Both the position numbers and the translations under genes were made by a program. DNA of 64,000 bases, from the IMG/VR virus record IMGVR_UViG_3300043775_002630, positions 62,001 through 126,000 of that record. One strand, written 5' to 3'. Each line of letters begins with the position of its first letter. The stretch's first letter is position 1. The notes under the pieces were generated by a model. It was given only the letters and a program-made list of their open reading frames with translations. It ran no database searches and was not told where the DNA came from. Positions 1,961 to 24,070 of the stretch are shown here, in pieces. This DNA comes from a virus.

Positions 1961-3640
1961 TTAAGACTCTTTTCTCAAGCTTCTGTCATAATGTTCAAAT
2001 CTATCGTGCTCAGTTGGGGTTGCAAATAACAATGCCGACTTGATATTACCCTTTTTAGTTTCTTGGAAAATGTAACTCATCCAAGTTTGTTCAAAAGGAC
2101 GGTCCCACTTTGTTGTTAAGAACATTTTCTCGTTTCCATATCTTGTAACAACTTGTGGCCAGTTACAATAATAAACTTCACCAATACCATAAGGTAATCC
2201 TTGATATGAATATACTGCGTCAAATTTAGTTCTTGGCGCATTAGGGTCTAATCCTTGAACAGGTAGGTTTGGTTTTTCAGGCCAAAACTTTTCTCTAACT
2301 GTTTGAGGAACATTATACCAAGACCATTGAACTCCATTGTCCCCAAAAAACTCAGAATAATTTAGTTTCAAAAAGTCTAATGAGTTTTCTCGGGTAATCT
2401 TCATAGACTTATTGTATAGGTCCTGAATATTTCTAATGAACCCATTTCTACAAACAGTATCTTTACCATCATAGAAGAACATATCGTCTTCAAAGAACCA
2501 ATAAAAATCAAAACCATTTTCTTGTGCGTGTTCAGCGATAAATTGTCTACCACCACAGATACCTAAGTTATCTTTTTTAATGTGTTCAAACTCGTATAAC
2601 TTACAAAGTTCCGAGTATTCCTCGGTAGTTGACAAGTCACTTGAATTATCTAAAAGATATTTCTTTTTAGGTTTTGTTAAGAAATTTTCATCATATAACT
2701 CCATAGACTTAATCAATGTTTTAAATTGATTAGGACTATTGAATGTAATTACATAGAGTGAGGTGTTATCATAATCTAAATCACTATAAGACTGTTTACC
2801 TGAAATATTTTTAACTTTATAGGTATCATTTTTAACATCTTCACAAAACTTAGAGATAAGTCCGTTACCATCAATTTCGTGGTAATCAAACATATCGTTG
2901 TGTCTGTATAACATAATACTGAATAAAGATTCTTCAGTGCCCATTAAACCTCTACCTAAAGTCTCACTTAAAACACTATAATAAAGACTATTAACGTCTG
3001 TTATCATACTTTTTAATCCACCAAACAAACCTCCTCTACAAACAAGTTTTACATCTTGTCCTGCGTAATCATTAATCGTTGGGTATTTGAATCCGTGAAT
3101 TTCATTTTCAGCGTCATATGGGAACGCCACAAACCCAAATCTTGGAAATACCTTATCGAATTTTTCTTGAATTTTATCGTGTGTAAAATATCCAGGATGA
3201 ACCGTATTTGTAATACCTGCATCAATCCAAAACAAATGTGTGGAGTCAAATTTGTCAAATATTTTTGCATCGTGCAATACAAACATTTTTGACATAACAA
3301 GAGGGTTATACATATCAAGTTTTGCTTGAGTTGATTCTGGCAGCCATCCCGATTGACTATACCATTCAGGGTTTGTTCTTATAGACTGAATGATTTCATA
3401 AAAATCATTTTTAAACCATTCTTGAGGTCTTACAATAAATTGGGTATTTTCATTATTTCTATTTGGTTGTGAAAATACGAATTCTTCAAGTTCTTTATCA
3501 CCAAAAATAATAAAGTTAGTGTCTTGTCTTAAAAGTTCCGAGAACTTTTGTAGATAATGGTCAAACGACCTTGACCATCCTTCAGTCAAAGAGTCACGTT
3601 TAATATTCCAAAGTCCGGTTACAAATGTAATTTTACTCAT
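1961..3640 (-). CDS. Two-domain glycosyltransferase: HtrL/YibB-like domain plus GT-A-like domain
   Basis: 559 residues. The first half opens with TFVTGLWNIKRDS and resembles the HtrL_YibB/WlaTC family, proteins found in LPS or lipooligosaccharide loci and thought to be glycosyltransferases. From about residue 290 a second domain starts (SLYVITFNSPNQF) and contains an acidic metal-site-like FEDDMFFYDG segment, suggesting a GT-A fold. The fusion could carry two transferase activities. The start overlaps the end of the upstream gene by 8 bases, so the two are translated from one message. It is the last of four glycosyltransferase genes that follow the Thr/Pro-repeat fibre genes. Acceptor and donor cannot be told from sequence. 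Confidence 0.8.
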   Translation of the reverse strand: MSKITFVTGLWNIKRDSLTEGWSRSFDHYLQKFSELLRQDTNFIIFGDKELEEFVFSQPNRNNENTQFIVRPQEWFKNDFYEIIQSIRTNPEWYSQSGWLPESTQAKLDMYNPLVMSKMFVLHDAKIFDKFDSTHLFWIDAGITNTVHPGYFTHDKIQEKFDKVFPRFGFVAFPYDAENEIHGFKYPTINDYAGQDVKLVCRGGLFGGLKSMITDVNSLYYSVLSETLGRGLMGTEESLFSIMLYRHNDMFDYHEIDGNGLISKFCEDVKNDTYKVKNISGKQSYSDLDYDNTSLYVITFNSPNQFKTLIKSMELYDENFLTKPKKKYLLDNSSDLSTTEEYSELCKLYEFEHIKKDNLGICGGRQFIAEHAQENGFDFYWFFEDDMFFYDGKDTVCRNGFIRNIQDLYNKSMKITRENSLDFLKLNYSEFFGDNGVQWSWYNVPQTVREKFWPEKPNLPVQGLDPNAPRTKFDAVYSYQGLPYGIGEVYYCNWPQVVTRYGNEKMFLTTKWDRPFEQTWMSYIFQETKKGNIKSALLFATPTEHDRFEHYDRSLRKES

Positions 3641-4514
3641 CGATTTTATTTAATTCTTCTAAAATTTTATAGAAACTTTTGTTTTCAACAAAGTAACTGT
3701 CAGGGGTTTCTCTTGGAGCGTTATCTCTACACCACCAAGTATCAAAATGTTTTCTAACAAAATATTCTGAATGGTTGTAAAACATTAGTGTCATAAACAA
3801 TTCTTCAGGAAAAGGTCTTTTATCCTCTTCAATAATCTTGTCAGCGTAATTCTCAAACATAGGTACTAATGTCTCCCATAATTCTCGTTTACCACCGAAC
3901 ATACCACCAATAATATGAATTGTTCTATCATAATTGGTATACCATTTTGGGTCAACTGTTTGAGACCAAAAATTTCTATCATTATCTTTACCAATCAAAA
4001 AGAATTTATCTCCTGAAAATTCTACAACATTTTTTAAAAAATCATTATTAAATAACGATGACTCATAAAACTTTCTTGGACCGTTTTCTACCGTAAGGTA
4101 TTTGTTCGGTATTAATCCGCTATGTGATAAACCAGCATCAATCCAATAATAATAATCGTATGTTTTATCTTCGTTCCACCACCAACTAAACTTTTGATAT
4201 TGTATTTCAAAACATCTATCACTTTTTTTAGCGTCTTCATAGTTTTTATACTTTTGAAGTAGTGTTTCATATCTTGTGGTTCTTAAGTTAGACAACTCAA
4301 ATTTTAATTTATCTTCAGATATACCATTTTCAACATAAAAGAAATTTTTTAATCTATCAATTTCTCTTGTTGAGGTATAACACACAAAATCAGCATCGGT
4401 CATTTTTAATAGTGAGAGAAGTGAATTTAAGTAATGACCAAATCTTGATGGTCTACCGCCTAACTCAGTCCCATATAGGTCACCGTAAATACAGGTTATA
4501 AATTTAACTGACAT
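3633..4514 (-). CDS. HtrL/YibB (WlaTC)-like putative glycosyltransferase
   Basis: 293 residues. The N-terminus KFITCIYGDLYGTELGGR and the central DYYYWIDAGLSHSGL resemble the HtrL_YibB family; the same WIDAG signature occurs in the first half of the downstream gene (FWIDAGITN), so the two are paralogous. Many Trp, Tyr and Asp residues fit a sugar-binding GT-A-type enzyme. It overlaps both neighbours (11 and 8 bases), which implies translational coupling in a four-gene cassette. No signal peptide or membrane segment is seen, so it should act in the cytoplasm. The sugar and acceptor are unknown. Confidence 0.8.
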   Translation of the reverse strand: MSVKFITCIYGDLYGTELGGRPSRFGHYLNSLLSLLKMTDADFVCYTSTREIDRLKNFFYVENGISEDKLKFELSNLRTTRYETLLQKYKNYEDAKKSDRCFEIQYQKFSWWWNEDKTYDYYYWIDAGLSHSGLIPNKYLTVENGPRKFYESSLFNNDFLKNVVEFSGDKFFLIGKDNDRNFWSQTVDPKWYTNYDRTIHIIGGMFGGKRELWETLVPMFENYADKIIEEDKRPFPEELFMTLMFYNHSEYFVRKHFDTWWCRDNAPRETPDSYFVENKSFYKILEELNKIDE

Positions 4515-5241
4515 AATAATATTCTTTATGAATGTTTTCTTTTTTCATTGTTTTATTGTTTACGTTATTCATAAACTCATTAGGTATTTTTACCTCACTA
4601 TAAAGGTTCCAATTGTATGTTTGACCGTAAAAATTATTACACATTTGTTGTGAAACGTCTGACCAGTCATTAGTAATTTGTGGTGCTATGGGTAGAATTG
4701 GGCAATAACTTTGTTTTTTTAAATATACTTTTTGATATATGTAATCATCCACTGCGTAAAATCTTCTACGTTCATCTTCTTCTATGGAAATAACATCATC
4801 ATATGATGATTCGTGATACAATATCATATTTGTTGCAAAAATACCTCTGTGTTCAGGAGACGCTGGTGGTAGATTAGTAATATCATTTAATAGTGGGTGT
4901 TTTTCGCTCCTATTAACATATCTATTTAAAGTTGGTGCCAAGTTAAAAACTGCGTATTCAAGACTTTGACACTCATCTTCGATTGCTTTTAATAAAGATT
5001 TTGCATACGGCATAACAACACAATCATCTTCAATAATAAGAACTTCTTTATATCCTCTTTCTTTCGCAATTTTTAAAATAGCCGTGTGGGAAAGTGTACA
5101 ACCCACGTGGCTATTAGTATCAACCGCCTTGAATAACTCAAAATCCCATTCAAGATATTCCATTTCTTTTTTAATGGATTCTAATCTATCAGGTCTTCTT
5201 TCAAGATTTACTACAAATTTTGGTATTGTATTGAACTTCAT
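4504..5241 (-). CDS. Glycosyltransferase family 25 (LPS / procollagen galactosyltransferase type)
   Basis: 245 residues with a clear GT25 pattern: VVNLERRPDRLESI (residues 10-23), VGCTLSHTAIL (46-56) and the metal-binding EDD (71-73). GT25 enzymes transfer galactose or related sugars to lipooligosaccharide or, in eukaryotes, to hydroxylysine of collagen. There is no transmembrane anchor. It starts 3 bases after the preceding gene and overlaps the next by 11. Given its place just after Thr/Pro-rich fibre genes, a protein acceptor is possible, but this is inference. Confidence 0.88.
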   Translation of the reverse strand: MKFNTIPKFVVNLERRPDRLESIKKEMEYLEWDFELFKAVDTNSHVGCTLSHTAILKIAKERGYKEVLIIEDDCVVMPYAKSLLKAIEDECQSLEYAVFNLAPTLNRYVNRSEKHPLLNDITNLPPASPEHRGIFATNMILYHESSYDDVISIEEDERRRFYAVDDYIYQKVYLKKQSYCPILPIAPQITNDWSDVSQQMCNNFYGQTYNWNLYSEVKIPNEFMNNVNNKTMKKENIHKEYYYVS

Positions 5242-5244
5242 TTT

Positions 5245-6492
5245 TTAAAGATTTCCTGTTAATCTATCACACCAACCCTTAGATTCTGAGTGAGGCCATA
5301 CAACCCAATATTTAGGTTTTTCTGCTGTTTGGAATTCTCTCCATACTTTACAATATCCATCAGGGTCTCTTAACATTGAAGTAATTTCATTTTTATCAGC
5401 GTCTTTTCTAAAGATTGTTTCATCATTTTCATTGTGGAACGCAACCACCCAAAAATCATAATCTTTTTCAGGTACTGAAGAATAACCAATATCAATACAG
5501 TGTTTGAATACTTGTGCGAAATCGGCTTTCCAATCATCTTCAGACTCATAATTGTATGGATTTGGCGGATATTTTTTATCAATTGTGTATTGCTGAACAG
5601 CTCTTTTTTCAAATAAAAGACCCGCATATTTTTCATAATCTCTTAAACTTCTAACGGTACCAAAGCCATAAGGACCATCGTGACCTTCTTGAGTTTCACC
5701 GTCCATACCAAACAACTTTCTATTTGTTAAGTGTGAGTGATTATTTTTATTAACCCATTCTTTGTCATCATCCCATTGTTTTGTTCTTCCTTTACGAGTA
5801 TACTCGTGCCAAATTAATGTTTTATGTGGGTGAAACAAATCATAACCCCAAGTATATGCTCTTGCGGCGATTGAAATTTCTTCTCCGTGGAAGTAATATT
5901 CGGGATTGTGTTGTACCTCGTTTGAGAATTCACCTAATGTAAAACAATAGTGTGCAGAATAGAATCTTGCGGGGATTGGTTCTTTTAAATCTTGCCAACC
6001 AGGAATTGTTTCAGGTAAGAAAAATACCGCACCTTCAGGAATAAATCTATCAAAAACCATTCTCCAAGGGTCTTGAACTCTACCTGCAGGGTCGTTTTCA
6101 GGGTCAAATGATGAAACATATCCTGTTAATAAAGGTTTTTTATGACCTTTCTTTTGAAGTTGTTTAATCATCTTAATCATCTCGTCATCCCAATTAGGTG
6201 CGAACCTCATATGTGAGTCAATTTGTAGGGTATATTCTTCACCCTCATAAAGTTGTTGTGTTAAGTTTCTAGCCCAACAAACGCCTTTAGATTCTTCGTG
6301 TGGAATATCTAAAACTCTGAATCTTTTATCCCCTTCAAATTCTTCTAAACTGTCAAATTTATCATCGGGGTGAAATTGTCTTGCAATACCAAATCTAATA
6401 TTTTTTGGTTTTTTAGCATTTTCCAACATATTCTTAATTGTTGGAACGAGTTGTGGGTCTCTATAGGACGCAATTTGAACAAAAATTTTCAT
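5245..6492 (-). CDS. GlcNAc-type glycosyltransferase (Skp1-GlcNAc-transferase-like family)
   Basis: 415 residues. The start KIFVQIASYRDPQLVPTI, the GVCWARN motif (70-76) and the DSH metal site in QIDSHMRF (90-97) match the GlcNAc transferase family (PF11397), whose best-known member glycosylates hydroxyproline of Skp1 in the cytoplasm. Bacterial and phage members are known by sequence but mostly uncharacterised. It is the first gene after the terminator at 6512-6545 and lacks a TATTTAT motif of its own, so it may rely on read-through from the fibre genes upstream. Donor sugar and acceptor are not proven. Confidence 0.85.
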   Translation of the reverse strand: MKIFVQIASYRDPQLVPTIKNMLENAKKPKNIRFGIARQFHPDDKFDSLEEFEGDKRFRVLDIPHEESKGVCWARNLTQQLYEGEEYTLQIDSHMRFAPNWDDEMIKMIKQLQKKGHKKPLLTGYVSSFDPENDPAGRVQDPWRMVFDRFIPEGAVFFLPETIPGWQDLKEPIPARFYSAHYCFTLGEFSNEVQHNPEYYFHGEEISIAARAYTWGYDLFHPHKTLIWHEYTRKGRTKQWDDDKEWVNKNNHSHLTNRKLFGMDGETQEGHDGPYGFGTVRSLRDYEKYAGLLFEKRAVQQYTIDKKYPPNPYNYESEDDWKADFAQVFKHCIDIGYSSVPEKDYDFWVVAFHNENDETIFRKDADKNEITSMLRDPDGYCKVWREFQTAEKPKYWVVWPHSESKGWCDRLTGNL

Positions 6493-6511
6493 TACACTTT
6501 TTTTTAAAAAA

Positions 6512-6545
6512 TAAAAAACCCTCCAATAAAGTGGAGGGTTTATAT
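6512..6545 (-). terminator. Intrinsic terminator after the Thr/Pro-repeat gene
   Basis: A 10-bp stem AAACCCTCCA / TGGAGGGTTT (6516-6525 with 6532-6541) with a 6-base loop is followed on the minus strand by T-rich sequence. It separates the fibre genes from the glycosyltransferase cassette and may lower expression of the latter by partial read-through. Confidence 0.85.
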
Positions 6546-6569
6546 GAAAGTTGTTTTAAATAATTTGAA

Positions 6570-7889
6570 TTAACATCCGTTAGGGTCTGTCTGAACAATA
6601 ACTCCTGAAGAATCTGTTCTGTACCAAGCGGTACCGTTAGACCAATATGCAACTCCTACAGGGTTTGATAATGGGTCAATTGTTTGATATAATGTCTCAC
6701 CTAAGTTTGGTCCTACACCACCTGATACCGAACCATAAACTGTAATAGGACTAGCCGCACAAGCTAAGTTAGCGGTTGAGCCTGATGATAACGAGTAAAC
6801 ATAATTATTTCTTGTTGGTGTTGGTGTTGGTGTACTTGTTCCTGTGTTAGTTGGTGTTTGAGTATTAGTTGGAGTATTAGTTGCGGTATTAGTTGGTGTT
6901 TGAGTATTAGTTGGTGTTGGTGTGTTAGTTGCTGTTTGTGTTGGTGTTGGTGTTAATGTTGGACATATTGAGAATCCATTTAATTCATAACCTGCAGAAT
7001 CTAACTCAACAACTTGACCCGAATTCTGATAGAAACCTGACATATCAGTTGTTACAGGTCCTGAAGGAGAATCATAGAAGAAAATATTTTGGTCAAAGAA
7101 TTGATTTATACCATATATCTCAATAGACGTACCGTAATTACCACAAGCATCAAGGGCATTATTTGCGAAATTCACGGCAAATTGGAATCTAGCAGGTTCA
7201 GTTGTTGATGGTGTTGGAGTTGGTGTTTGAGTATTAGTTGCGGTGTTTGTTGGTGTTTGAGTAATAGTTGGTGTTGGTGTGTTAGATGATGTGTTGGTTG
7301 GAGTATTAGTCGGGGTTTGAGTTTGGGTACTAGTCGGAGTGTTAGTTGGTGTTTGTGTATTTGTAGGTGTTTGCGTTGGTGTACCTGTTTGAGTATTTGT
7401 TGGTGTTTGTGTTTGAGTTGATGTATTTGTTATAGTATTAGTCGGTGTCTGAGTTGGTGTATTTGTTGCGGTATTAGTTGGTGTTTGTGTTTGGGTATTA
7501 CTTGGTGTGTTAGTTACAGTATTTGTTGGTGTATTAGTTACAGTATTTGTTGGTGTTGGTGTAGGCGTTTTGGTTTGAGTATTAGTTGGGGTTTGAGTAT
7601 TAGTTGCGGTGATAGACGGTGTTGGAGTTGGGGTTCTTGTATTAGTTGGTGTTGGAGTATTAGTCGCAGTTTGAGATGGTGTTGGTGAAATAGGAGGGAA
7701 TGTCTCCTCAACAATAGTAAATTGTGCTGATAAAGCAGCTTGAAACGTACCATTAACCAACCAAATATTTCGTACTTGACCAGGTGTTAATAAGATATCG
7801 TATTCCCACATATTGTTGGAACACTCTTGATAAGAGAAAGTTAATCCCTGAGCTGTGTTATTAGTTAGTATGTATTTTTTACAAGCCAT
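6570..7889 (-). CDS. Thr/Pro/Asn-repeat modular adhesin-like protein
   Basis: 439 residues in five parts: a folded N-terminal domain (1 to about 65) that is almost identical to that of the 8498 gene, a long TNTPTPTNT-type low-complexity stalk (about 66-230), a Cys-containing beta-type module (about 231-312), a second Thr/Pro stalk, and a C-terminal module ending in DPNGC. The middle module (CGNYGTS, NSPSGPVT-type, VVELDS) recurs in the 10415 gene. The layout resembles a virion fibre or adhesin made of small domains on mucin-like stalks. No signal peptide is visible. The dense Thr content makes it a candidate O-glycosylation substrate for the enzymes encoded just downstream; this is inference. 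Confidence 0.8.
   Translation of the reverse strand: MACKKYILTNNTAQGLTFSYQECSNNMWEYDILLTPGQVRNIWLVNGTFQAALSAQFTIVEETFPPISPTPSQTATNTPTPTNTRTPTPTPSITATNTQTPTNTQTKTPTPTPTNTVTNTPTNTVTNTPSNTQTQTPTNTATNTPTQTPTNTITNTSTQTQTPTNTQTGTPTQTPTNTQTPTNTPTSTQTQTPTNTPTNTSSNTPTPTITQTPTNTATNTQTPTPTPSTTEPARFQFAVNFANNALDACGNYGTSIEIYGINQFFDQNIFFYDSPSGPVTTDMSGFYQNSGQVVELDSAGYELNGFSICPTLTPTPTQTATNTPTPTNTQTPTNTATNTPTNTQTPTNTGTSTPTPTPTRNNYVYSLSSGSTANLACAASPITVYGSVSGGVGPNLGETLYQTIDPLSNPVGVAYWSNGTAWYRTDSSGVIVQTDPNGC
6815..6955 (-). repeat. Degenerate tandem repeats encoding a Thr/Pro stalk
   Basis: Repeats of about 18-24 bases coding TPTNT-type units in the C-terminal stalk of the 6570-7889 gene. Confidence 0.75.
7196..7690 (-). 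repeat. Degenerate tandem repeats encoding the long Thr/Pro/Asn stalk
   Basis: About 500 bases of imperfect short repeats coding TNTQTPTNT-like units. The same word family recurs in the genes ending at 7929, 8508 and 54521. Confidence 0.8.
7671..7889 (-). repeat. Duplicated N-terminal module, copy 1
   Basis: The first ~73 codons closely match those of the neighbouring gene (8280-8498). The DNA is also near-identical over long stretches, for example around 7790-7840 against 8395-8450, so the duplication or conversion is recent. Confidence 0.8.
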
Positions 7890-7928
7890 TTTAGTAGTTC
7901 TTTATTATTAAATATCATCAATATGTTA

Positions 7929-8498
7929 TTAACAACTGCCAGTGTCTATAATAACTCCTGACCCGTTAGTTTGGATATAATTATGCCCATCAGAATAGAA
8001 TGATGCTTCAGTTGTTGAGGTCATTGCAAAATTTAAATAAACAATATCACCATTAATCAAATTTGAAAATAGTTTTGTCGAATATCTTGGTGCATTTCCC
8101 TGTGGATAGTTATTACAAGCATTTACCGACAAAGTATCATCAATCCCTAAATCAGAATATTCAAACACTACTTGTGTTGGGGTTGGAGTCGGGGTTGATG
8201 TACGTGTTGGTGTTACTGATTGTGTTGGAGTAGGAGTTAACGTTGGAGTAACTGATGGCGTTGGTGTATTAGTCGGAGTCTGAGATGGTGTTGGTGAAAT
8301 AGGTGGAAACACTTCTTCAGTGATTGTGAATTGTGCCTCTAAAGCCGCTTGAAAAGTTCCGTTAACTAACCAAATATTTCTAACTTGACCAGGTGTTAAT
8401 AAGATATCGTATTCCCACATATTGTTGGAACATTCTTGATAAGAAAAAGTTAAACCTTGTGAGGTGTTGTTTGTTAAAGTATATTTTTTACAAGACAT
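7929..8498 (-). CDS. Short Thr/Pro-repeat adhesin-like paralogue
   Basis: 189 residues: an N-terminal domain nearly identical to that of the 7889 gene, a short Thr/Pro linker (about 70-112), and a different C-terminal beta-type module of about 75 residues with two Cys, ending in SGVIIDTGSC. The shared head and swapped tail suggest module exchange. It lies between two larger members of the same family, 9 bases from the upstream one. Likely a virion surface or accessory fibre protein; its real role is unknown. Confidence 0.75.
   Translation of the reverse strand: MSCKKYTLTNNTSQGLTFSYQECSNNMWEYDILLTPGQVRNIWLVNGTFQAALEAQFTITEEVFPPISPTPSQTPTNTPTPSVTPTLTPTPTQSVTPTRTSTPTPTPTQVVFEYSDLGIDDTLSVNACNNYPQGNAPRYSTKLFSNLINGDIVYLNFAMTSTTEASFYSDGHNYIQTNGSGVIIDTGSC
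8280..8498 (-). repeat. Duplicated N-terminal module, copy 2
   Basis: Partner of 7671-7889; see that entry. Confidence 0.8.
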
Positions 8499-8507
8499 AA
8501 TATTTTA

Positions 8508-10415
8508 TTAACTATTTAAACAAGTTATACAATTATTCCAAGGACCCGATATAACGTCTGCGAATGTGGTTACTGTTGCAGTTGTTGTTGATATTATCGT
8601 GTAACAAGAAACACCATCATTAATTACATCTAATTTATAGATTTTACCCGTCTGTAAAGTATCATAAATACCAAACTGACCAACAAATCCTGAAGAACAA
8701 TCTTGTACTAAATATTTTTTAGCCCCTTGAGGTGTGTCAGTAGGTGTTACTGACGGTGTATTTGTATTTGTTGGTGTTGGACTTGCGGTATTAGTTGGAG
8801 TCTGTGTTTGTGTTGGAGTCTGTGTTTGTGTTGTTGTATTAGTTGGGGTTTGTGTTGGAGTATTTGATGCCGTGTTTGTTGGTGTCTGTGTTGCGGTATT
8901 AGTTGGTGTCTGTGTTTGTGTTGCCGTGTTAGTCGGAGTTTGAGTCGGAGTTTGAGTTGAGGTATTGGTTGGTGTATTTGTTGCAGTATTTGTTGGTGTT
9001 TGAGTTGGTGTTGGCGTATTACTAGCAGTATTAGTTGGTGTCTGAGTAGGTGTGTTGGTGGCAGTGTTTGTTGGTGTTTGAGTTGCGGTATTTGTTGGAG
9101 TATTTGTTGGTGTTTGAGTAGGTGTATTTGTTGCGGTATTAGTTGGAGTGTTAGTTGCAGTATTAGTTGGTGTCTGAGTTGGTGTATTTGTTGCAGTATT
9201 AGTTGGGGTATTTGTTGCTGTGTTTGTTGGAGTCTGAGTCTGAGTTGGAGTTTGAGTTGGTGTAGGTGTGTTGGTTGCGGTATTAGTCGGAGTTTGAGTT
9301 TGGGTAGGTGTATTTGTTGCTGTGTTAGTTGGAGTCTGAGTTTGAGTTGGAGTTTGAGTTTGGGTTGGTGTTTGGGTAGGTGTAGGTGTAAGTGTTACGC
9401 ATATTGAATACCCACCTGTTTCATTACCTGATGAATCCAACTCAACAACTTGTGCAGATTGTTGGTAGTAACCTGTCATATCAACGGTTACTGGACCTGA
9501 CGGAGAATTGTAGAAGAAATTGTTTTGGTCGAATATAGTTTCAATACCATATATGGTAGTTGATGTTCCATAATTACCACAAGCCTCATCATATGTACCA
9601 CCTTTGATAACTGAGAACGCATATCTTGGTGGTTCACTTGGGGTTGGAGTTTGTGTTTGTGTTTGTGTCGGAGTTTGTGTTTGTGTCGGAGTTTGTGTTT
9701 GTGTCGGAGTTTGTGTTGGAGTCTCTGTATTAGTTGGTGTTTGGGTTGGTGTTGAACCTAATGTAGATGTTGGTGTCTGAGTTGGTGTAGATGTTGGTGT
9801 GTTTGTCGCAGTATTAGTTGGTGTGTTTGTTGCGGTATTAGTTGGTGTGTTTGTTGCGGTATTAGTTGGCGTATTTGTCGCAGTATTAGTTGGTGTGTTT
9901 GTTGCGGTATTAGTTGGCGTATTTGTTGCGGTGTTAGTTGGCGTATTTGTTACCGTATTAGTTGGAGTTTGTGTCGGAGTATTTGTATTACTTGGAGTTT
10001 GAGTTGGGGTTGAACCTAAAGTTGACGTTGGTGTTTGAGTAGGTGTAGGTGTCTGTGTGTTTGTAGGTGTCTGTGTGTTTGTAGGTGTTTGAGTTGCAGT
10101 ATTTGTTGGCGTCGGCGTATTAGTTGTTGTATTAGTAGGTGTTGTTGTTGGTGTAACAGTCATTGTTGGCGTACTCGTACTAGTTACCGTAGGCGTAGGT
10201 GTTGGGCTTACTGGTGGAACCGTAACTTCTAAAGTGTAAGTGTAGTCATATGTTGGAATGTACATTTCAAACACACCATAATAGTATGATGAAATATAAT
10301 TAAATGGTATTACTTGCGTACCCAAATCTATTGTACCCCCCGAAGCAGGTAGATACGTTACTTCAGCGGTTTGACCACTTAAATTATTACTTAAAATTCT
10401 AATTCCAATTGCCAT
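8508..10415 (-). CDS. Large Thr/Pro/Asn-repeat modular adhesin-like protein
   Basis: 635 residues. A unique ~70-residue N-terminal beta-type domain (MAIGIRILSNNLSGQ start) is followed by a Thr/Pro/Asn stalk (about 70-265), a Cys-bearing module shared with the 7889 gene, a second very long stalk (about 345-560), and a C-terminal module (KKYLVQDCSSG to NNCITCLNS). A version of that last module is found in the 56194 gene, 45 kb away. A TATTTATT motif ends 5 bases before the ATG. This looks like a virion fibre or adhesin; repeat length is likely to vary between relatives by slippage or recombination. Confidence 0.8.
   Translation of the reverse strand: MAIGIRILSNNLSGQTAEVTYLPASGGTIDLGTQVIPFNYISSYYYGVFEMYIPTYDYTYTLEVTVPPVSPTPTPTVTSTSTPTMTVTPTTTPTNTTTNTPTPTNTATQTPTNTQTPTNTQTPTPTQTPTSTLGSTPTQTPSNTNTPTQTPTNTVTNTPTNTATNTPTNTATNTPTNTATNTPTNTATNTPTNTATNTPTNTATNTPTSTPTQTPTSTLGSTPTQTPTNTETPTQTPTQTQTPTQTQTPTQTQTQTPTPSEPPRYAFSVIKGGTYDEACGNYGTSTTIYGIETIFDQNNFFYNSPSGPVTVDMTGYYQQSAQVVELDSSGNETGGYSICVTLTPTPTQTPTQTQTPTQTQTPTNTATNTPTQTQTPTNTATNTPTPTQTPTQTQTPTNTATNTPTNTATNTPTQTPTNTATNTPTNTATNTPTQTPTNTPTNTATQTPTNTATNTPTQTPTNTASNTPTPTQTPTNTATNTPTNTSTQTPTQTPTNTATQTQTPTNTATQTPTNTASNTPTQTPTNTTTQTQTPTQTQTPTNTASPTPTNTNTPSVTPTDTPQGAKKYLVQDCSSGFVGQFGIYDTLQTGKIYKLDVINDGVSCYTIISTTTATVTTFADVISGPWNNCITCLNS
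8745..9390 (-). repeat. Long degenerate repeat tract (second stalk)
   Basis: About 650 bases of TPTNTATQ-type coding repeats. The opposite strand stays open because of composition, not because it is coding. Confidence 0.8.
9790..9975 (-). repeat. 24-bp near-perfect tandem repeats
   Basis: About seven consecutive 24-base units encode NTPTNTAT; copies differ mainly at third codon positions (cgc/tgc, tgt/tat, gtg/gta). The synonymous drift shows selection on the protein repeat. Confidence 0.85.
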
Positions 10416-10420
10416 ATTCT

Positions 10421-10428
10421 AATAAATA
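10421..10428 (-). promoter_or_regulatory. TATTTATT motif before the 10415 start
   Basis: Coding-strand TATTTATT ends 5 bases before the ATG of the large Thr/Pro-repeat protein. Confidence 0.4.
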
Positions 10429-10446
10429 GTTGAATCCAAATAAGAT

Positions 10447-12432
10447 TTATAAAATGTCATAAGATAAATCGTTATTTGGTAATAATGTATAATTCAGGTC
10501 ATTATTCGGAAGTAATACGAAACCTAAATCGTTATCAGGTATTGATATGTAATAGAAGTCATTTGCCGGTATAACAATAGTACAATCAATACAATCAGTA
10601 TCTAATAAATCATACTTATTTTTTAGTAACCTAAAATTGTGTCTAATTTGTGACGCATCCAAAGGTTCGGTATACATTCTAAACGCACTGATATCACCAA
10701 TGAAACTACCACCAAAAATCTCTTCTAAATGTATTTCAGTTGTTAAACCTGAATAGATTGTGTGTTCCAAATCATAATCAGTCAAACACTCAGGGTCTTG
10801 TTGATATGTAATTGCCGACAATGTCGGAGCACATCCACCCGAAAAAGTTAAGTTGTCTTTTAATCCTTGAGTTCCCCCACCTAATGAAATGTTGTATGGA
10901 ACCCCAATTTGTTTTTCTTTATATGTGTTTAATGGTCGAGCAACAATTTCTTCAAAATCATCGATAATCATAAATTGTTTACCGTTAACATAAACATAAA
11001 GTTTACCTAACCTGTATTTTCTTTGTTGAATCCAATAATCGTTAATTTCAACAACATCCGTTGTTGCGGGAACGTCTTTAGGGTTGTGTGTAATTGGGGG
11101 TTCAATTAGGGAGACGCTATTGTTTGCTGTGGTTGCGGTATAAATCTCAGTGACCAATTGTCCTAATCCACCAAGAGAATATTGGTCCTTACAATCTAAC
11201 CAATCATTTCTTCTAAACACAACATCAATTTGAACCCAGTGTTCCACATTTGGATATGTTGTTCCTGTACATCCATCAAAAATTCCTTTTGATGAACACC
11301 ACTCGATTACCGTGGTTCCTGTTACAAATGTTGTTCCTGTTTCACAAGTTCCCGTTGTAACACAAGAACCCGTTATTAGATACTCTTTAACACAGACTTT
11401 AGGGTTACCAGTATCACCGCTAAGTCTAACTGACATACCGTTTGAAACCCCGTCATATAACGGGTCTAGTTCAGGATATTCGGCTTTAACCTCACACTGA
11501 CAAGCACATCCACAACTACAGTTTTTGGATGTTCCTCCTGACATTTGATAAACGTGAATACACTGATTTGAATTTGTGTAACCTGTTTCGTGACAAAGAC
11601 AAGTTTTCATACAAGTCAAACCTGATGTTACTCTTGTATATCCTGTGTCACTTTCAGGACTTCCGTCAGGATAGTGATAAAATTTATTTTCGGCTCTTGT
11701 CCCCAAATAGAAGAAGGTACCTTTGTTATTTGGGTATCTATTATTAATACCGACACTTGTATCACCTGTCCATCTGTATTTTAATAAAAACTCAGCGGTC
11801 CAACCTTGATTAGTTCTAACAGGGAATGTATCATAATCGTATCCTTGTAATTTAAAAAACCCTTGGAAGAATCCTCCGTTAAGTGTTGCCACGGTTCCGA
11901 TACGACCGCCAGCATTAGACCAACTTAAATTATAGTTATATGAGTTGTCATTCCACAATCTGTTTGAAGGAGTTGTACTACCAGTAATTGGATGCATTTT
12001 AAATCTCCTATCGTACTTGTATCTGTTATATGTTTCGGCGGTTGTTGTGTACAGTCCTGTCGTAATGTCTATTGAAACCCCTGACATTTGTAATGTCAAA
12101 CCATTGTCAATTCCTGTAAGTCCTACGTCACACAATGTTGACGCACAAACACAAAAGTTTGGGTCAATGTTTTTTGGGTTGTAATAATTTTCAGAAACTA
12201 TTGTGTCATATAAAAATTCGTTTCTTAAAGGAGCAATTGTTGTTCCAGTAGAATTGAAATCAAATTTCAAAGGCATTCTATTACCATCATCTTCAGCGAT
12301 TAGAAATGGTGAAAAGATAACCTCTTGGTTATAATCTTTTTCGTCAGATGCTAAACAAAAATCAGTTACTTGGTTTACCGGTAGTAATCCAATTCTACGA
12401 TAATTGTATTGATTAATATTTTGATATGCCAT
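10447..12432 (-). CDS. Fibre-like virion protein with a LamG-like region, a Cys-rich insert and terminal decapeptide repeats
   Basis: 661 residues. The central part (WTAEFLLKYRW, LGKLYVYVNGKQFMIID, IGDISAFRMYTEPLD) has the rhythm of a concanavalin/LamG-like lectin fold as in phage fibres. Interrupting it is a very Cys-rich stretch (CMKTCLCHETG to CSCGCACQCE) that could bind metal or form disulfides. The C-terminus carries four 10-residue repeats of the type LLPNNDLxY. It is the first gene of the left minus-strand run, divergent from the 12484 gene, and has its own TATTTATC motif. Probably a receptor-binding or fibre component; no exact family is claimed. Confidence 0.78.
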   Translation of the reverse strand: MAYQNINQYNYRRIGLLPVNQVTDFCLASDEKDYNQEVIFSPFLIAEDDGNRMPLKFDFNSTGTTIAPLRNEFLYDTIVSENYYNPKNIDPNFCVCASTLCDVGLTGIDNGLTLQMSGVSIDITTGLYTTTAETYNRYKYDRRFKMHPITGSTTPSNRLWNDNSYNYNLSWSNAGGRIGTVATLNGGFFQGFFKLQGYDYDTFPVRTNQGWTAEFLLKYRWTGDTSVGINNRYPNNKGTFFYLGTRAENKFYHYPDGSPESDTGYTRVTSGLTCMKTCLCHETGYTNSNQCIHVYQMSGGTSKNCSCGCACQCEVKAEYPELDPLYDGVSNGMSVRLSGDTGNPKVCVKEYLITGSCVTTGTCETGTTFVTGTTVIEWCSSKGIFDGCTGTTYPNVEHWVQIDVVFRRNDWLDCKDQYSLGGLGQLVTEIYTATTANNSVSLIEPPITHNPKDVPATTDVVEINDYWIQQRKYRLGKLYVYVNGKQFMIIDDFEEIVARPLNTYKEKQIGVPYNISLGGGTQGLKDNLTFSGGCAPTLSAITYQQDPECLTDYDLEHTIYSGLTTEIHLEEIFGGSFIGDISAFRMYTEPLDASQIRHNFRLLKNKYDLLDTDCIDCTIVIPANDFYYISIPDNDLGFVLLPNNDLNYTLLPNNDLSYDIL

Positions 12433-15065: not shown

Positions 15066-16283
15066 ATGTCAAAAATTAATGTTTTATGTGTCCCATCTGA
15101 CCGTTCAGGTGTTGGCAAATTCAGGTCGTTAGACCCCCACATTTTTCTTCAAAATCAATATCCCGAGGATTTTTTTGTTGAGATTGATTACAATCCACCT
15201 ATGAATGATTTGAATTTCTATAAGAAATTCCAAATTGTACATTTCCATAGAAGTATCACAGGAGACTTTGATGCATCTAAAAAGTTAGTTGAGGAACTAA
15301 ATAAAATGGGTGTTATCACAATTTGTGATATCGATGACTATTGGATGCCAAGCAAAGACCACCCAATTCACGATGTTATTATGTATAATAAAATCAATGA
15401 AAGAATTGTTGAAAGTCTTAAAGGGGCACAATACGTAACAACAACCACCACTTTATTCGCAGATGAAATTAAAAAGATTAATAAAAATGTGTTTGTATTA
15501 CCAAACGCAGTTAATCCCGAAGAACCACAATTCAAAGAAGTAACACCCGAATCTGATAGACTCAGAATTGGTTGGTTAGGTGGTTCATCACATATGGGTG
15601 ATTTGAAGTTGTTAGACAACTCATTTAATAAATTACTCCAATTCAAAGATAAAGTTCAATATGTTCTTTGTGGGTTTGACACAAGAGGTACGATTACTGA
15701 AATTAACGGTCAAACAGGTGAACAGAAGAAAAGACAAATTCTTCCTCACGAAACTGTGTGGGCTAGATACGAAGAAATCTTTACACAAAACTATAAAGTT
15801 GTTTCAGAAGATTTTAAAAATCATTTGATGAAGTTTGAACAAGGTGAAAAACCTGAGTTTTTAGGGGAGGGTTACCGTCGTGTTTGGACACTTCCTGTTA
15901 CATCATATGCTAAAAATTATTCTAAGATGGACGTTTCATTGGCCCCAATCAAAAACCATATGTTTAACAGAATGAAGTCTCAACTTAAAGTTATTGAGGC
16001 GGGATTCTATAAAAAAGCTGTTGTGGCGTCTGATTTGGGTCCCTACACACTTGATTTGACACACTCATTAGACAAACACGGTAAGTTTACAGATGGTAAC
16101 GCGCTACTAGTTAGTGAATACTCAAACGCTCACGATTGGGCTAAATATTTGGAGAAATTAATCAAAAACCGTAATTTTGCTACTGACTTGGGTGAGAGAT
16201 TGTATGAGTCTGTTAAAGACAAATATGATTTGAAAAATGTCACTAAAGACCGAGCAGAATTGTACAAAAGTTTAATTAAATAA
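15066..16283 (+). CDS. GT-B-type glycosyltransferase
   Basis: 405 residues with the two-Rossmann GT-B outline: an N-terminal half with FQIVHFHRSI and ITICDIDDYWMPS, and a C-terminal half with LRIGWLGGSSHMGDL (about 173-187), then the MKSQLKVIEAGFYKKAVVASDLGPY segment. That last stretch is the donor-binding E-x-G-x-x-K/P pattern of GT4-like enzymes. It probably adds a sugar from a nucleotide donor in the cytoplasm. It opens the dense plus-strand block, after a 54-base AT-rich gap with no clear promoter, and ends one base before the exonuclease start. Confidence 0.85.
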   Translation: MSKINVLCVPSDRSGVGKFRSLDPHIFLQNQYPEDFFVEIDYNPPMNDLNFYKKFQIVHFHRSITGDFDASKKLVEELNKMGVITICDIDDYWMPSKDHPIHDVIMYNKINERIVESLKGAQYVTTTTTLFADEIKKINKNVFVLPNAVNPEEPQFKEVTPESDRLRIGWLGGSSHMGDLKLLDNSFNKLLQFKDKVQYVLCGFDTRGTITEINGQTGEQKKRQILPHETVWARYEEIFTQNYKVVSEDFKNHLMKFEQGEKPEFLGEGYRRVWTLPVTSYAKNYSKMDVSLAPIKNHMFNRMKSQLKVIEAGFYKKAVVASDLGPYTLDLTHSLDKHGKFTDGNALLVSEYSNAHDWAKYLEKLIKNRNFATDLGERLYESVKDKYDLKNVTKDRAELYKSLIK

Positions 16284-16284
16284 T

Positions 16285-17004
16285 ATGATTAAGATTCCAT
16301 TACCTAAAATTCTTTTTCTTGACATTGAGACTGTCGGACTAACAAAAGACTATGACCATTGCAAAAAGGAATACCCAAAAATTGCCGAACAATTTGATAA
16401 GTATTTTGATTGGTTTTTGAAAAGGTTCCCTGAAGACCAACTGATTGGTAAAAACGAAGATGAACAAAAAAATCTTGTGTTTTCTTCACGAGCAGCTTTG
16501 GTTCCTGAATTTGCAAAGATTGTTTGTATCAGTGTTGCGTTTGTTATGGAAAATGGTGATATTAAGAAACAAACATTCCACAACGATAATGAACAACACT
16601 TGTTGGTGGATTGTCAAAAGTTACTTGACCGTTGTGGTAGATTAGAATTTTGGTTGTGTGGACATAACCTTAAGAACTTTGATATTCCTATGATGGCAAA
16701 AAGAATGATTATCAACGGATTAATGCCACCATCAATCTTACCGTCTTATGACACAAAACCTTGGGAGATTAGAGCGATTGACACCAAAGAAATTTGGCAA
16801 TACGGTGCATACACAGCAATTGGTTCTTTGGACCTTATGTGTACCTGTATGGACGTTCCATCTCCTAAAGAAGGTGAGGTTACAGGGGCTAAGGTTCACG
16901 ACGCGTATTGGAATAAAGGTATGTTAAAAGAAATTGCCGAATATTGTGAAAGAGATGTTCAGGTATTAATTGATGTTGTTCAAAAATTAAAAGCACTTAT
17001 ATGA
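16285..17004 (+). CDS. 3'-5' exonuclease related to the PolB exonuclease domain
   Basis: 239 residues. DEDD-type motifs: Exo I LFLDIETVGL (D13, E15), Exo II CGHNLKNFDIP in the middle, Exo III YCERDVQVL near the C-terminus (Y220, D224), which is the DEDDy pattern. It matches predicted PolB-like 3'-5' exonucleases (PF10108) that stand alone in Bacteroidetes and phages. It probably acts in phage DNA replication, repair or nucleotide recycling. It overlaps the dUTPase start by 4 bases (ATGA), so the two are co-translated. Confidence 0.88.
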   Translation: MIKIPLPKILFLDIETVGLTKDYDHCKKEYPKIAEQFDKYFDWFLKRFPEDQLIGKNEDEQKNLVFSSRAALVPEFAKIVCISVAFVMENGDIKKQTFHNDNEQHLLVDCQKLLDRCGRLEFWLCGHNLKNFDIPMMAKRMIINGLMPPSILPSYDTKPWEIRAIDTKEIWQYGAYTAIGSLDLMCTCMDVPSPKEGEVTGAKVHDAYWNKGMLKEIAEYCERDVQVLIDVVQKLKALI

Positions 17005-17609
17005 TTGATTTTGAATCAGACCCAGAATTAAACGATGAGATTAAAAGACTCTTCGACGAAATTAAAAATTTTAAAGACGAGAATGATGATGAGGATTTGA
17101 TGTCCGAAATTGAATCCCGTTTAGGTTTACCTTTTGACGAATTTGAAAAGTTATTAGGGGACGCCTTAACAAAAAAACCATTGTTCTATAAAAAACTACA
17201 CGAAGATGCTGTAGACCCAAAGTACGCATATGAAACCGATTCAGGTTTTGATTTACACAGTGTAGAAGAAATCCATTTCTTACCATTTGAACGTAAGTTA
17301 GTTCCAACAGGATTATCATTTGATATTCCTGAAGGTTTTGAAATTCAAGTAAGAACTAAAAGTGGGTTGGCAATTAAACAAGGACTTATGGTTTTGAATA
17401 GTCCTGGAACTGTAGACCAAGGATACACAGGTGAGGTCAAAGTTATTCTAATGAATATGAATAATATGGCGGTTACCGTTGAAAAAGGACAGAAGGTTGC
17501 TCAAGGCGTTTTATGTCCTGTAGAATCAGGTAAAAAAGTTTCTTTGGTGGAAGATGAATTTGAGGATAAAGAACGTGGTTCAAATGGATTTGGTTCAACA
17601 GGAATTTAA
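17001..17609 (+). CDS. dut: dUTP diphosphatase with an N-terminal extension
   Basis: 202 residues. All five trimeric dUTPase motifs are present: TDSGFDL (79-85), RTKSGLA (118-124), GTVDQGYTGEV (136-146, catalytic D139), GQKVAQ (163-168) and RGSNGFGSTG (192-201). Converts dUTP to dUMP, keeping uracil out of phage DNA and feeding thymidylate synthesis. About 65 acidic, helical residues precede the enzyme domain and are not part of the usual ~150-residue enzyme; they may mediate an interaction. Motif 5 is complete, so activity is expected. Confidence 0.95.
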   Translation: MIDFESDPELNDEIKRLFDEIKNFKDENDDEDLMSEIESRLGLPFDEFEKLLGDALTKKPLFYKKLHEDAVDPKYAYETDSGFDLHSVEEIHFLPFERKLVPTGLSFDIPEGFEIQVRTKSGLAIKQGLMVLNSPGTVDQGYTGEVKVILMNMNNMAVTVEKGQKVAQGVLCPVESGKKVSLVEDEFEDKERGSNGFGSTGI

Positions 17610-17619
17610 AAAATAAGAT

Positions 17620-19239
17620 ATGATTACTATTGGATATTCTACCCGAGAAAGTAAACCTGAGTTTATTGAATACTTAAAAACCTCATCAGGTTATGCCAAA
17701 AATGTTAGGGTTATTGAGAAAGTTAATAATGGTGAAAAATCACTATCACAAGTTTATAATGAAATTTTAAATGAAAGTGAAACTGATATTGTAATCTTTT
17801 GTCACGATGATATCTATTTTGATAGTACTGGATGGTATCATAAAATACTAAAACATTTTGAAAAAACAGATTACGGAATTTTAGGTGTTGCTGGTACCAA
17901 ATTTATGAGTGAAAATGGTACTTGGTGGTCCGACAGAAGAAAGATGTATGGTGTTGTTAATCACGAAAGTGGGGGTAAAAAATGGGAATCAAAATACTCC
18001 ACATCATTAGGAAACGGTATCGATGATGTTGTTGTTCTTGACGGTGTTTTTTTAGTGGTTCATAAGAATAGAATTAATCATAACTTTGTCGAAGAATTTG
18101 AGGGATTTCACTTCTACGATATTCCATTTTGTTTTGAGAACTTTTTAAGTGGTGTAAAACTTGGTGTTATGTATAACGTAAGAATTACTCACAAATCAGT
18201 TGGTATGACTAACGAACAATGGGAGATAAATCGAAAAAAATTCGAGGAAAAATACAATCAACATCTACCACAAAAATTGGCATTAGACCCTAAGACAAAA
18301 TTAAAGATTTTGTTTACTTGTTTATCATTTAAAACATTGACAGGTTCTGAACTTTATGTATACCAATTAGCCAAGTCACTTAAGAAAATGGGACACGATG
18401 TTTCTGTTATGTCAGAAATTGGTGGTCCTTTAACTGATATGGCAAAAAAAGATGGTATCAAAGTTTATTCAATTAGAGAACCTTTGGGCTATAAATTAGG
18501 AGATGGAAAGTGGAGTTTTCAAAATGGTGAAATTTCACAACCAAATGTCCTATACCCTGTTGGAGAATTGATGGTAGATTTAATTCACACTCAACACAAA
18601 CCAATCACAGAACATATTTGTAGACTTTATCCAAACATACCAAAAATATCCACAATACATTCTGAAGTAATTGATTTGGAAATTCCATATGTTCACGAAT
18701 CTATTAAAAAATACATTGCAATCAGACCTGAAATTAAAGATTATTTGATTACTGAACACTCAATCGACGAGGAAAAAATTAAAGTAATTTACAACCCAAT
18801 TGATAATACAAAATTTAAATCATCGACAACAAGTGAGGATTATGTTCTGTTTGTCGGTACTTTAGATTATTTGAGAAAAAATACAATTTTTGATTTAGTT
18901 GAGAAAACTAAAGAAAGGGGTTTGAAATTAGTGGTTGTTGGTGAAGATAAATCAATTTATTTAAACGAATTAAAAAGTCACTCTCACGTAGAATATTATC
19001 CTGCGACTTGGTCGGTTGAGAAATATGTTTCAAAGTGTAAAGAAACTGCAGGTATTCAATTAGGGAGAACAACTATTGAAGGTTGGATTTCAGGTAAACC
19101 AGGTTGGATTTATAAAGTCGATGCTCAAGGGAATATAATGGATATTGAGTATCACGAACCCCCAACTGATGTGGATAAATACTATTCGGAAAATGTTACT
19201 AAACAAGTAATTGATGAATATCTTTATTCGGTAGTTTAA
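17620..19239 (+). CDS. Bifunctional glycosyltransferase: GT2-like domain fused to a GT-B domain
   Basis: 539 residues. The first ~215 form a GT-A domain (ITIGYSTRES start; DIVIFCHDDIYFD with the acidic metal site; VVVLDGVFLVVHK), similar to the Glyco_tranf_2_5 group. From about 226 a GT-B domain begins (KLKILFTCLSFKTLTGSELYV) with IKVIYNPIDN and LFVGTLDYLRKN as the donor-side features of GT4 enzymes. One polypeptide could add two successive sugars. No membrane segment. It lies in the sugar island, 10 bases after the dUTPase. Confidence 0.85.
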   Translation: MITIGYSTRESKPEFIEYLKTSSGYAKNVRVIEKVNNGEKSLSQVYNEILNESETDIVIFCHDDIYFDSTGWYHKILKHFEKTDYGILGVAGTKFMSENGTWWSDRRKMYGVVNHESGGKKWESKYSTSLGNGIDDVVVLDGVFLVVHKNRINHNFVEEFEGFHFYDIPFCFENFLSGVKLGVMYNVRITHKSVGMTNEQWEINRKKFEEKYNQHLPQKLALDPKTKLKILFTCLSFKTLTGSELYVYQLAKSLKKMGHDVSVMSEIGGPLTDMAKKDGIKVYSIREPLGYKLGDGKWSFQNGEISQPNVLYPVGELMVDLIHTQHKPITEHICRLYPNIPKISTIHSEVIDLEIPYVHESIKKYIAIRPEIKDYLITEHSIDEEKIKVIYNPIDNTKFKSSTTSEDYVLFVGTLDYLRKNTIFDLVEKTKERGLKLVVVGEDKSIYLNELKSHSHVEYYPATWSVEKYVSKCKETAGIQLGRTTIEGWISGKPGWIYKVDAQGNIMDIEYHEPPTDVDKYYSENVTKQVIDEYLYSVV

Positions 19240-19290
19240 AGTCCTTATTTATTTTTACTAAAAAATTATTATTTTAGTATAAAAATTAAT

Positions 19291-21267: not shown

Positions 21268-21270
21268 AAT

Positions 21271-21870
21271 ATGCCAATATCAGATAACCTAAAAACAATT
21301 TTTGTCCATATACCAAAAAACGCTGGTACTGCAATTACTAATAGTAAAATTGCAAGATTTTATATGGGTGGTCACGATTCGGCAAAAGAAATTAAAAATA
21401 AAGAACCTAAAAAATGGGACGAATATTTCAAATTTGCCGTCATTAGAAATCCTTGGGATAGGGTCGTTTCCAATTATGAGTATGCTCGTATGGAAAAAAG
21501 TTATTGGCACCACGTAAGTGACACGAATGTTGGCGCGGCTCATTTCGATTACCATACATTGAAAGATAAAACATTTGAGGAGTGTGTTAATATGTTGTAT
21601 GAAGACAGGTCGTCTTTAAAACATCAAGGTTGGGCACCTCAATATGTGTGGATATCTGATAATGAAAAAAATATTTTAGTTGATAAAGTTTTTTATCACG
21701 AAACTTTAGAAACTGATGAGGAGTTTAATAAGTTAATTCCTGATTTAGAAAAGGTAAACTTTAGTGATAGAAAAAGCAACAATTACAAAGATTATTATAC
21801 TGAAGATTTGATACGTAAGGTGTCAGAGATTTATGAATATGATATAAATTTATTTAAATTCAAATACTAA
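21271..21870 (+). CDS. PAPS-dependent sulfotransferase (carbohydrate type)
   Basis: 199 residues. The 5'-phosphosulfate loop FVHIPKNAGTAI (11-22) and the 3'-phosphate-binding FAVIRNPWDRVVSNY (55-69; R59, S67) are clear sulfotransferase signatures, as in the Sulfotransfer_2 family acting on sugars. It would transfer sulfate from PAPS to a glycan. There is no transmembrane anchor, so the acceptor would be cytoplasmic, such as a lipid-linked sugar or a glycosylated phage protein. The next gene, 3 bases on, is an APS kinase that would make PAPS. Confidence 0.88.
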   Translation: MPISDNLKTIFVHIPKNAGTAITNSKIARFYMGGHDSAKEIKNKEPKKWDEYFKFAVIRNPWDRVVSNYEYARMEKSYWHHVSDTNVGAAHFDYHTLKDKTFEECVNMLYEDRSSLKHQGWAPQYVWISDNEKNILVDKVFYHETLETDEEFNKLIPDLEKVNFSDRKSNNYKDYYTEDLIRKVSEIYEYDINLFKFKY

Positions 21871-21873
21871 ATT

Positions 21874-22661: not shown

Positions 22662-22662
22662 A

Positions 22663-23067: not shown

Positions 23068-23297
23068 TTGATGTAAAAATTAGATACAATACGGTTTGTG
23101 ATGATAATCACATGTATTGGAGAATTTTAATAAACGGTGTTGAACATACTTGTTCAAATATCTTAATAGAAACACCCATGCACACAACTATTGATACGGT
23201 GTATGACCCATCAAGAGAAAAAATGGTAACAAAACACCATATCTCTTGTATGGCATCTGAAGTTATTTGGAAGGGTGATGTTGTAATTGTTAAGTAA
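23064..23297 (+). CDS. Unknown small protein
   Basis: 77 residues, beta-type (YWRILINGVEHTCSNILIET), with several His and Cys. No family recognised. It overlaps both neighbours by ATGA or single-base junctions, so it belongs to the same message. Real gene status is supported by the tight packing rather than by homology. Confidence 0.7.
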   Translation: MIDVKIRYNTVCDDNHMYWRILINGVEHTCSNILIETPMHTTIDTVYDPSREKMVTKHHISCMASEVIWKGDVVIVK

Positions 23298-24068: not shown

Positions 24069-24070
24069 TT

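Follow-up and report, generated by a model that had tools for sequence, protein, structure and literature searches.

A phage gene cassette with a GT60-family enzyme that probably O-glycosylates the phage's own Thr-Pro-rich stalks

The virus record IMGVR_UViG_3300043775_002630 (142,363 bases) comes from a freshwater-type phage and carries a gene cassette that probably forms a complete system of its own for mucin-type O-glycosylation of the phage's Thr-Pro (TP)-rich virion stalks. We analyzed positions 62,001 to 126,000 of this record (64,000 nucleotides; hereafter the window). Genes for a major head protein and a portal protein lie in the same window, so the glycosyltransferases (GTs) of the cassette are phage-encoded. 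All genes of the cassette are on the minus strand. In the order of transcription, they start with F0, a putative fibre/adhesin protein (10447..12432; 661 aa; no Pfam match), followed by three TP-rich open reading frames (ORFs). TP-rich protein 1 (8508..10415; 635 aa, 227 Thr, 70 TP) matches phrog_15511, a family of unknown function, and is a likely glycan acceptor, as is TP-rich protein 3 (6570..7889; 439 aa, 119 Thr, 39 TP); the smaller TP-rich protein 2 lies between them (7929..8498; 189 aa, 32 Thr, 12 TP). Next come four enzyme genes: a PF11397 GT, the proposed initiating polypeptide O-glycosyltransferase (5245..6492; 415 aa; Pfam E 1.5e-66); a GT25-type GT, proposed as an extension enzyme in the variable part of the cassette (4504..5241; 245 aa; PF01755, E 4.1e-15); an HtrL-like GT, also a proposed extension enzyme (3633..4514; 293 aa; no Pfam match, hhalign 98% to an HtrL alignment); and the conserved last enzyme, which combines HtrL_YibB with a C-terminal GT-A-like domain (1961..3640; 559 aa; PF09612, E 7.4e-11). 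Neighbouring ORFs over 12432..1961 overlap by up to 11 bases or are separated by at most 77, a spacing compatible with one transcription unit. Downstream of the last enzyme gene lie a 125-aa ORF and a polymerase-B-type ORF that is truncated at the window edge. An earlier note, made from the letters of this DNA, had described three Thr/Pro-rich proteins with hundreds of Thr followed by four GT-type genes on the same strand. The coordinates and strand held, and Pfam returned the same PF11397 and GT25 families that the note had named. The four enzymes also lack membrane anchors, as the note had stated: their highest 19-residue hydropathy mean was 0.93, so that no membrane span is expected.

The three TP-rich ORFs of the cassette contain 378 Thr in total. 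Their five TP tracts consist of 35-46% Thr and are nearly uncharged, with 1-4 charged residues apiece and hardly any Lys/Arg. The N-terminal stretch is nearly identical between TP-rich proteins 2 and 3, and tblastn of the fibre N-terminal stretch against GenBank phages gave no match. A different 20-kb stretch of the record contains the codon pattern for TPTxTPT 22 times, compared with 0.01 expected after shuffling. Because TP tracts also occur elsewhere in the record, adjacency in one genome proves little, and the comparative survey described below carries the weight of the argument.

The first enzyme matched the profile of PF11397, which we take to be equivalent to CAZy GT60, with 225.7 bits against a cut-off of 21. 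Its AlphaFold2 model, built from 43 sequences, had a predicted local distance difference test (pLDDT) value of 92. The Foldseek matches of this model (template modeling score about 0.5) were ranked by a second comparison, in which the top 29 PDB entries were all polypeptide N-acetylgalactosamine (GalNAc)-transferases (Z 19.2-22.4 over 252-282 residues, 3.1-3.8 Å). Other GT-A enzymes (TarS, RmlT, chondroitin polymerase) trailed at Z 18.0 and lower; since they come next in the list, the fold alone is not decisive. Searching PDB sequences with the protein found no relative, and searching PDB with its alignment gave three matches with E 0.21-0.76, which we regarded as chance. D92-S93-H94 was invariant across the 43 sequences and is positioned like a DXH metal site. 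The model suggests a GT-A fold related to the polypeptide GalNAc-transferases. According to the excerpts available, GT60 is related to the animal polypeptide GalNAc-transferases (PMC3188802) and includes both the Skp1 hydroxyproline enzyme (PMC6939170) and a Thr-specific, mucin-type polypeptide alpha-N-acetylglucosamine (GlcNAc) transferase of Trypanosoma cruzi (PMC3769586, PMC8724618). The earlier note had likened the phage enzyme to the Skp1 enzyme. The family assignment stands, whereas Skp1-type hydroxyproline glycosylation was set aside as the analogue: because GT60 also holds Thr-specific mucin enzymes and the neighbouring tracts are Thr-rich, the mucin-type enzyme is the apter one, and the predicted fold agrees. 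Pfam lists HtrL_YibB, the family of the last enzyme, as a bacterial protein whose function is unknown. The HtrL model (pLDDT 84) resembles two-domain GTs such as LH3, LARGE1, and chondroitin polymerase; its predicted template modeling score of 0.53 leaves the domain arrangement uncertain.

To compare the locus among viruses, we took the best 80 of 538 viral-contig stretches with PF11397 relatives as a close set, 80 loci whose enzyme was 47-64% identical to that of phage XacN1 as a distant set, and 120 random viral loci, unmatched for habitat, as a control. A TP-rich ORF was present in 73/80 close and 47/80 distant loci and in 1/120 random loci. The close count depends on the ORF cut-off (73/80 at 60 aa, 71/80 at 90 aa); the Fisher test, for which 73/80 was used, is descriptive only, since related genomes are counted as independent. 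The TP-rich ORF of the close loci was mostly directly upstream of PF11397 on the same strand. For a positional count, loci were dereplicated at 95% and at least 1 kb of upstream sequence was required. The same-strand gene directly upstream of PF11397 was TP-rich in 26/35 close and 17/62 distant loci, compared with 9/452 and 34/979 of the other genes in these loci and with 0/35 and 0/62 of the genes directly downstream. The co-occurrence of TP-repeat genes and the cassette in related phages, which the earlier note had proposed to look for, was thus found. Seven of the 80 close loci had no TP-rich ORF; five of them offer 2.3 kb or less of upstream sequence, and the other two (L059, L082) have short TP stretches below the threshold. 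Nine close loci carry the TP gene behind HtrL instead. Their enzymes are 94-100% identical, indicating a single rearrangement that preserved the pairing. Homologues of F0 in related phages often bear TP tracts themselves, and a homologue of the polymerase-B-type ORF follows the cassette in many relatives.

The pairing was also seen outside the syntenic relatives. Fifty-nine distant loci (not dereplicated) have no homologue of the synteny markers F0, g125, or polB; 14 of these showed the immediate upstream pairing, and 15 had a TP gene at another position in the flank. We then considered 31 enzyme-positive records without a flanking TP gene, namely those of 29 of 32 distant loci (minus L524, L571, and L575) and of two close loci. 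TPTxTPT sites were present in 14/31 of them and in 8/9 of those of at least 70 kb. Among random records, 2/33 had one site each, and the reversed control pattern likewise occurred in 2/33; at 57 kb or longer, 1/12 random records had a single site.

HtrL and/or the second domain of the last enzyme accompanied PF11397 in 75/80 close, 70/80 distant, and 18/79 bacterial loci, and was found in 0/120 random viral loci. Seventy-five loci have both ends; in these, PF11397 and HtrL are separated by 1-13 genes, none of them on the opposite strand. A GT25 homologue was labelled in 34/80 close loci. The 207 middle genes other than the GT25 or 293-aa type fell into 57 families by BLAST linkage. Pfam analysis of 145 dereplicated middle genes, tallied over 25 of 36 families and with one protein allowed several matches, gave GT10 (18), FkbM methyltransferase (15), CmcI-type methyltransferase (10), PLOD-type GT (6), and GT25 (6), among others; three sulfotransferase models had 2-3 matches each and carbamoyltransferase had 2. 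Judged from these matches, the middle genes are putative glycan-building and glycan-capping functions. The cassette has a conserved frame, with PF11397 first and HtrL last, and interchangeable middle genes; the four GTs of the window are one instance of it.

At the sensitivity of our search, a PF11397 enzyme was found in three of 50,697 GenBank phage records: XacN1, CM1, and RAS14. TPTxTPT sites numbered 51 in XacN1 and 22 in RAS14, and the reversed pattern numbered 0 in both. HtrL lies four genes downstream of PF11397 in XacN1 and three in RAS14. XacN1 is thus like the window in having a GT60 homologue (ORF334), a carbamoyltransferase (ORF333), HtrL (ORF330), and TP repeats, although its TP genes are mostly not adjacent to the enzyme and several adjoin tail sheath genes. 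Proteomic analysis detected at least two glycoproteins in XacN1, and its authors suggested that the phage's GTs, ORF334 among them, make these glycoproteins (PMC5852040). The part of that paper available to us names two GTs only and draws no link to TP repeats.

Bacterial relatives provided a further comparison. A genome scan kept 79 bacterial PF11397 loci, of which 69 were counted; in the other ten, the PF11397 ORF had been lost by the ORF caller. High-GC bacterial genomes yield doubtful ORFs. TP-rich genes made up 10/252 genes within two genes of PF11397, compared with 1/308 at a distance of at least four genes. In four myxobacterial contigs (L454, L456, L480, L483), GT60, HtrL, and the second domain are fused into a single open frame, arranged as in the phage; in L457, GT60-HtrL is in a frame cut by the locus end, and in L458, HtrL precedes GT60. 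Several S/T-P-rich proteins at or near bacterial PF11397 genes start with twin-arginine-like leaders, for example in Saprospiraceae, Jiulongibacter, Vicinamibacterales, and Sorangium contigs; these leaders were recognized from a simple pattern and by visual inspection rather than with a trained predictor. The simple pattern flagged four loci (L424, L425, L474, L483). A stricter pattern flagged seven (4/18 with HtrL, 3/61 without), including the doubtful L444 and L465, and did not flag L424, L425, and L437, which look like twin-arginine translocation (Tat) leaders by eye. Tat export following cytoplasmic modification would fit these proteins. In many Burkholderiales loci, PF11397 is inside a type VI secretion locus (TssA, PAAR, and VgrG models matched on sample proteins). 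VgrG tails with P/S/T repeats were recognized by eye in 12 of the 24 loci listed, two VgrGs being Pfam-checked; these tails are a lead only. VgrGs ending in long pure TP repeats lie about 4 kb from PF11397 in L426 and L430 (13-17 kb). In a Gemmatimonas contig, a protein that matches PqqD marginally, below the cut-off, and has a TP-rich tail (L444:7167-7886) adjoins PF11397.

We propose the following mechanism. In the host cytoplasm, the GT60 enzyme would attach an initial sugar to many Thr residues of the TPTNT/TPTQT tracts, most likely alpha-GlcNAc donated by UDP-GlcNAc. The glycan would be extended by the middle enzymes, here the GT25-type and HtrL-like GTs, and by the two-domain HtrL enzyme. 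Coated in this way, a TP tract would act as a hydrophilic stalk, stiff and resistant to proteases, that joins folded fibre domains. The first and last enzymes are retained across related phages, with fucosyl-, methyl-, sulfo-, carbamoyl-, and other transferases exchanged in between, and such phages would consequently show differing glycans. Gene content, gene order, co-occurrence, predicted fold, and bacterial domain fusions were computed, and we infer the acceptor, the sugar, the site, the order of reactions, the display on the virion, and the benefit. The idea of the earlier note, a cassette that decorates fibre stalks, gains support from the association in the survey and weaker, independent support from bacteria and isolated phages. 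Genome comparison and predicted fold give good support to glycosylation of the TP stalks by the cassette, but they do not amount to proof of the chemistry. More broadly, there is about an even chance that the system is a transferable prokaryotic equivalent of mucin-type O-glycosylation, in which a GT60 initiator and a two-domain HtrL extender, sometimes fused, coat cytoplasmic Thr/Ser-Pro-rich stalks. These would be virion stalks in phages, with the glycan varied by interchangeable fucosyl-, methyl-, sulfo-, and carbamoyltransferases, and Tat-exported proteins, perhaps also type VI spike repeat tails, in some bacteria.

A number of observations weigh against the proposal that the cassette acts on TP stalks. 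TP-rich tracts occur in eight ORFs of the phage's own record, and its 85 TPTxTPT sites lie at five places, so that further TP proteins are distant from the cassette. We infer the virion location of the TP proteins, among which a single one, of 822 aa (L003:5862-8330), matches a Hoc-like head decoration protein (E 9.2e-13); the other seven TP-tract ORFs best match phrog_15511. The predicted fold of the PF11397 enzyme by itself reveals no acceptor, and bacterial HtrL proteins are associated with lipooligosaccharide loci in the available part of PMC4172580. In the viral survey, the random control was not matched for habitat, and the nine loci with a displaced TP gene count as one event, which weakens the support they give. 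Roughly half of the distant loci carry a TP gene neither directly upstream nor nearby; among those without synteny markers, the flank is free of TP-rich genes in 30/59. No TPTxTPT site was found in 17/31 enzyme-positive records without a flanking TP gene, 16 of the 17 being shorter than 70 kb. In bacteria, a TP-rich gene lies no more than two genes from PF11397 in only 9/69 loci, and three of the ten TP-rich genes concerned are in phage-like contigs (L447, L477). The converse survey, which started from 120 TP-repeat loci chosen by the TP codon pattern, among the matches listed, points the same way. PF11397 was present in 10/120 of these loci at the level of the stretch, and in 11/27 whole records selected for TP, including the known positives L133 and L147. 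HtrL was not found in the remaining 16 records, in a search that matched no control. Of 14 records picked solely by a related major head protein, six carry PF11397, all within the nine of at least 60 kb. A Pfam scan of 81/84 genes downstream of TP genes at PF11397-negative loci (at most two per locus) revealed one RgpF as the only GT.

The converse survey also has results of another kind. The 27 TP-selected records and the 50 random ones (33 in the site count) were hand-picked from 120 each, mostly by length, and PF11397 was found in 0/50 random records, 12 of which are at least 54 kb. The PF11397 profile search gave no match in control genomes but found the enzyme in the phage's own record and 17 others. 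All nine head-protein-selected records of at least 60 kb carry TPTxTPT sites. The genes downstream of TP genes at PF11397-negative loci belong to DNA polymerase, portal, collagen-like, and similar families; given that RgpF was the only GT there, the association is specific to PF11397 and does not reflect GTs beside any TP gene. TP tracts thus occur without the cassette, and long records with the cassette are rarely without TP tracts. Giant viral ORFs were classed as TP-rich in this survey (4628 aa in L178, 4239 aa in L125, 3665 aa in L157), and the source records of L125 and L157 yielded neither PF11397 nor HtrL.

Other acceptors have to be considered. The enzymes might glycosylate other virion proteins, such as the capsid, tail tube, or fibre heads, with the TP genes merely sharing a late operon and their tracts being naked spacers. 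The glycosylation known from phage virions is indeed on the capsid and tail tube (Freeman et al., 2023, as cited in the part of PMC12619734 available), and the 16/27 TP-selected records with TP tracts and no enzyme would be expected of such spacers. We nevertheless consider this unlikely, for the pairing recurs outside syntenic relatives, has outlived one rearrangement, and is enriched in bacteria, though some of those contigs may be phage. A role in remodelling the host envelope (lipopolysaccharide/O-antigen), with the enzymes belonging to a receptor module by the fibre genes and serving to prevent superinfection or release progeny, would account for the HtrL and GT25 families, both of which occur in lipooligosaccharide loci (PMC4172580, in part), and for a GT content as hypervariable as that of O-antigen loci. 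This role is quite improbable: the four enzymes have no membrane spans, neither the Pfam matches of the cassette nor the 25 of 36 middle-gene families include a flippase, polymerase, or lipid-carrier family, the predicted fold of the first enzyme is nearest to polypeptide GTs, and some bacterial relatives adjoin S/T-P-rich proteins with export-type leaders.

The position of the cassette next to a DNA polymerase gene raises the further idea that the enzymes hypermodify phage DNA. The polymerase-B-type ORF recurs after the cassette in many relatives, and the last enzyme weakly resembles DNA glycosyltransferases in its C-terminal part (PF20691, E 4.8e-4, below the cut-off; phrog_842, E 1.4e-5). 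The TAGT profile fell short on the same enzyme, with 20.6 bits against a cut-off of 27.5 and over 34 residues only. PF00303 (thymidylate synthase/hydroxymethylase type) was not found in the phage's own, possibly incomplete record, whereas 9/14 controls were positive; PF12851 was not found in this record, but no control was positive either. Both enzymes also have relatives in bacteria, some of them next to S/T-P-rich proteins. DNA modification is accordingly a very remote prospect, and glycosylation of the TP stalks is the reading that we retain.

The proposed system can be set beside several known ones. Eukaryotic mucin-type O-glycosylation by GT60 (TcOGNT-2 of T. cruzi, Gnt2 of Dictyostelium) involves the same enzyme family and Thr-rich mucin acceptors. 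In contrast to these Golgi enzymes, the phage enzyme is soluble by prediction, and the presumed acceptor, extender, and decorator genes are in one cassette. The loci of streptococcal serine-rich repeat adhesins comprise a repeat protein, the initiator GtfA/GtfB, and variable extension GTs for cytoplasmic O-glycosylation, with a Ser-rich acceptor and accessory Sec export. The layout is shared with the phage cassette, whereas the initiator family differs, being PF11397 here; no GtfA/GtfB-type family was among the matches of the nine ORFs scanned with Pfam. The gtr clusters for O-antigen conversion in temperate phages contain membrane-bound flippase/transferase genes, unlike the four cassette enzymes with no hydropathic span. 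We know of no TP stalks or swappable cassette in the virion glycosylation system of mycobacteriophages. That system likewise places glycans on virion proteins, but on the C-termini of capsid and tail-tube proteins (Freeman et al., 2023, as cited in the available part of PMC12619734). The earlier note knew of no described system of this layout, and none appeared in our search of the open-licence literature, the scope of which does not extend to subscription journals. As proposed here, the cassette is a new form of phage virion glycosylation resting on a mucin-type enzyme family.

A second carbohydrate cluster lies on the plus strand of the window (15066..32055), with other genes interspersed. 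It includes GTs, a GDP-mannose 4,6-dehydratase adjoining a DegT aminotransferase, an APS kinase adjoining a sulfotransferase, and methyltransferases. We consider it a possible source of sugars and further decoration for the cassette. ARAGORN detected a transfer-messenger RNA with a 21-residue tag peptide at 63182-63577 (plus strand) of the window.

If the proposal is true, mucin-like O-glycosylation begun by the GT60 family would be no eukaryotic speciality. A widespread group of environmental phages would own an assembly line for a fast-changing glycan coat on the virion, which bears on adsorption, protease resistance, and virion recognition. The proposal would also suggest a function for HtrL_YibB. 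Finally, it would offer a simple cytoplasmic, lipid-free route to the dense O-glycosylation of TP repeats, which could be tried in E. coli.

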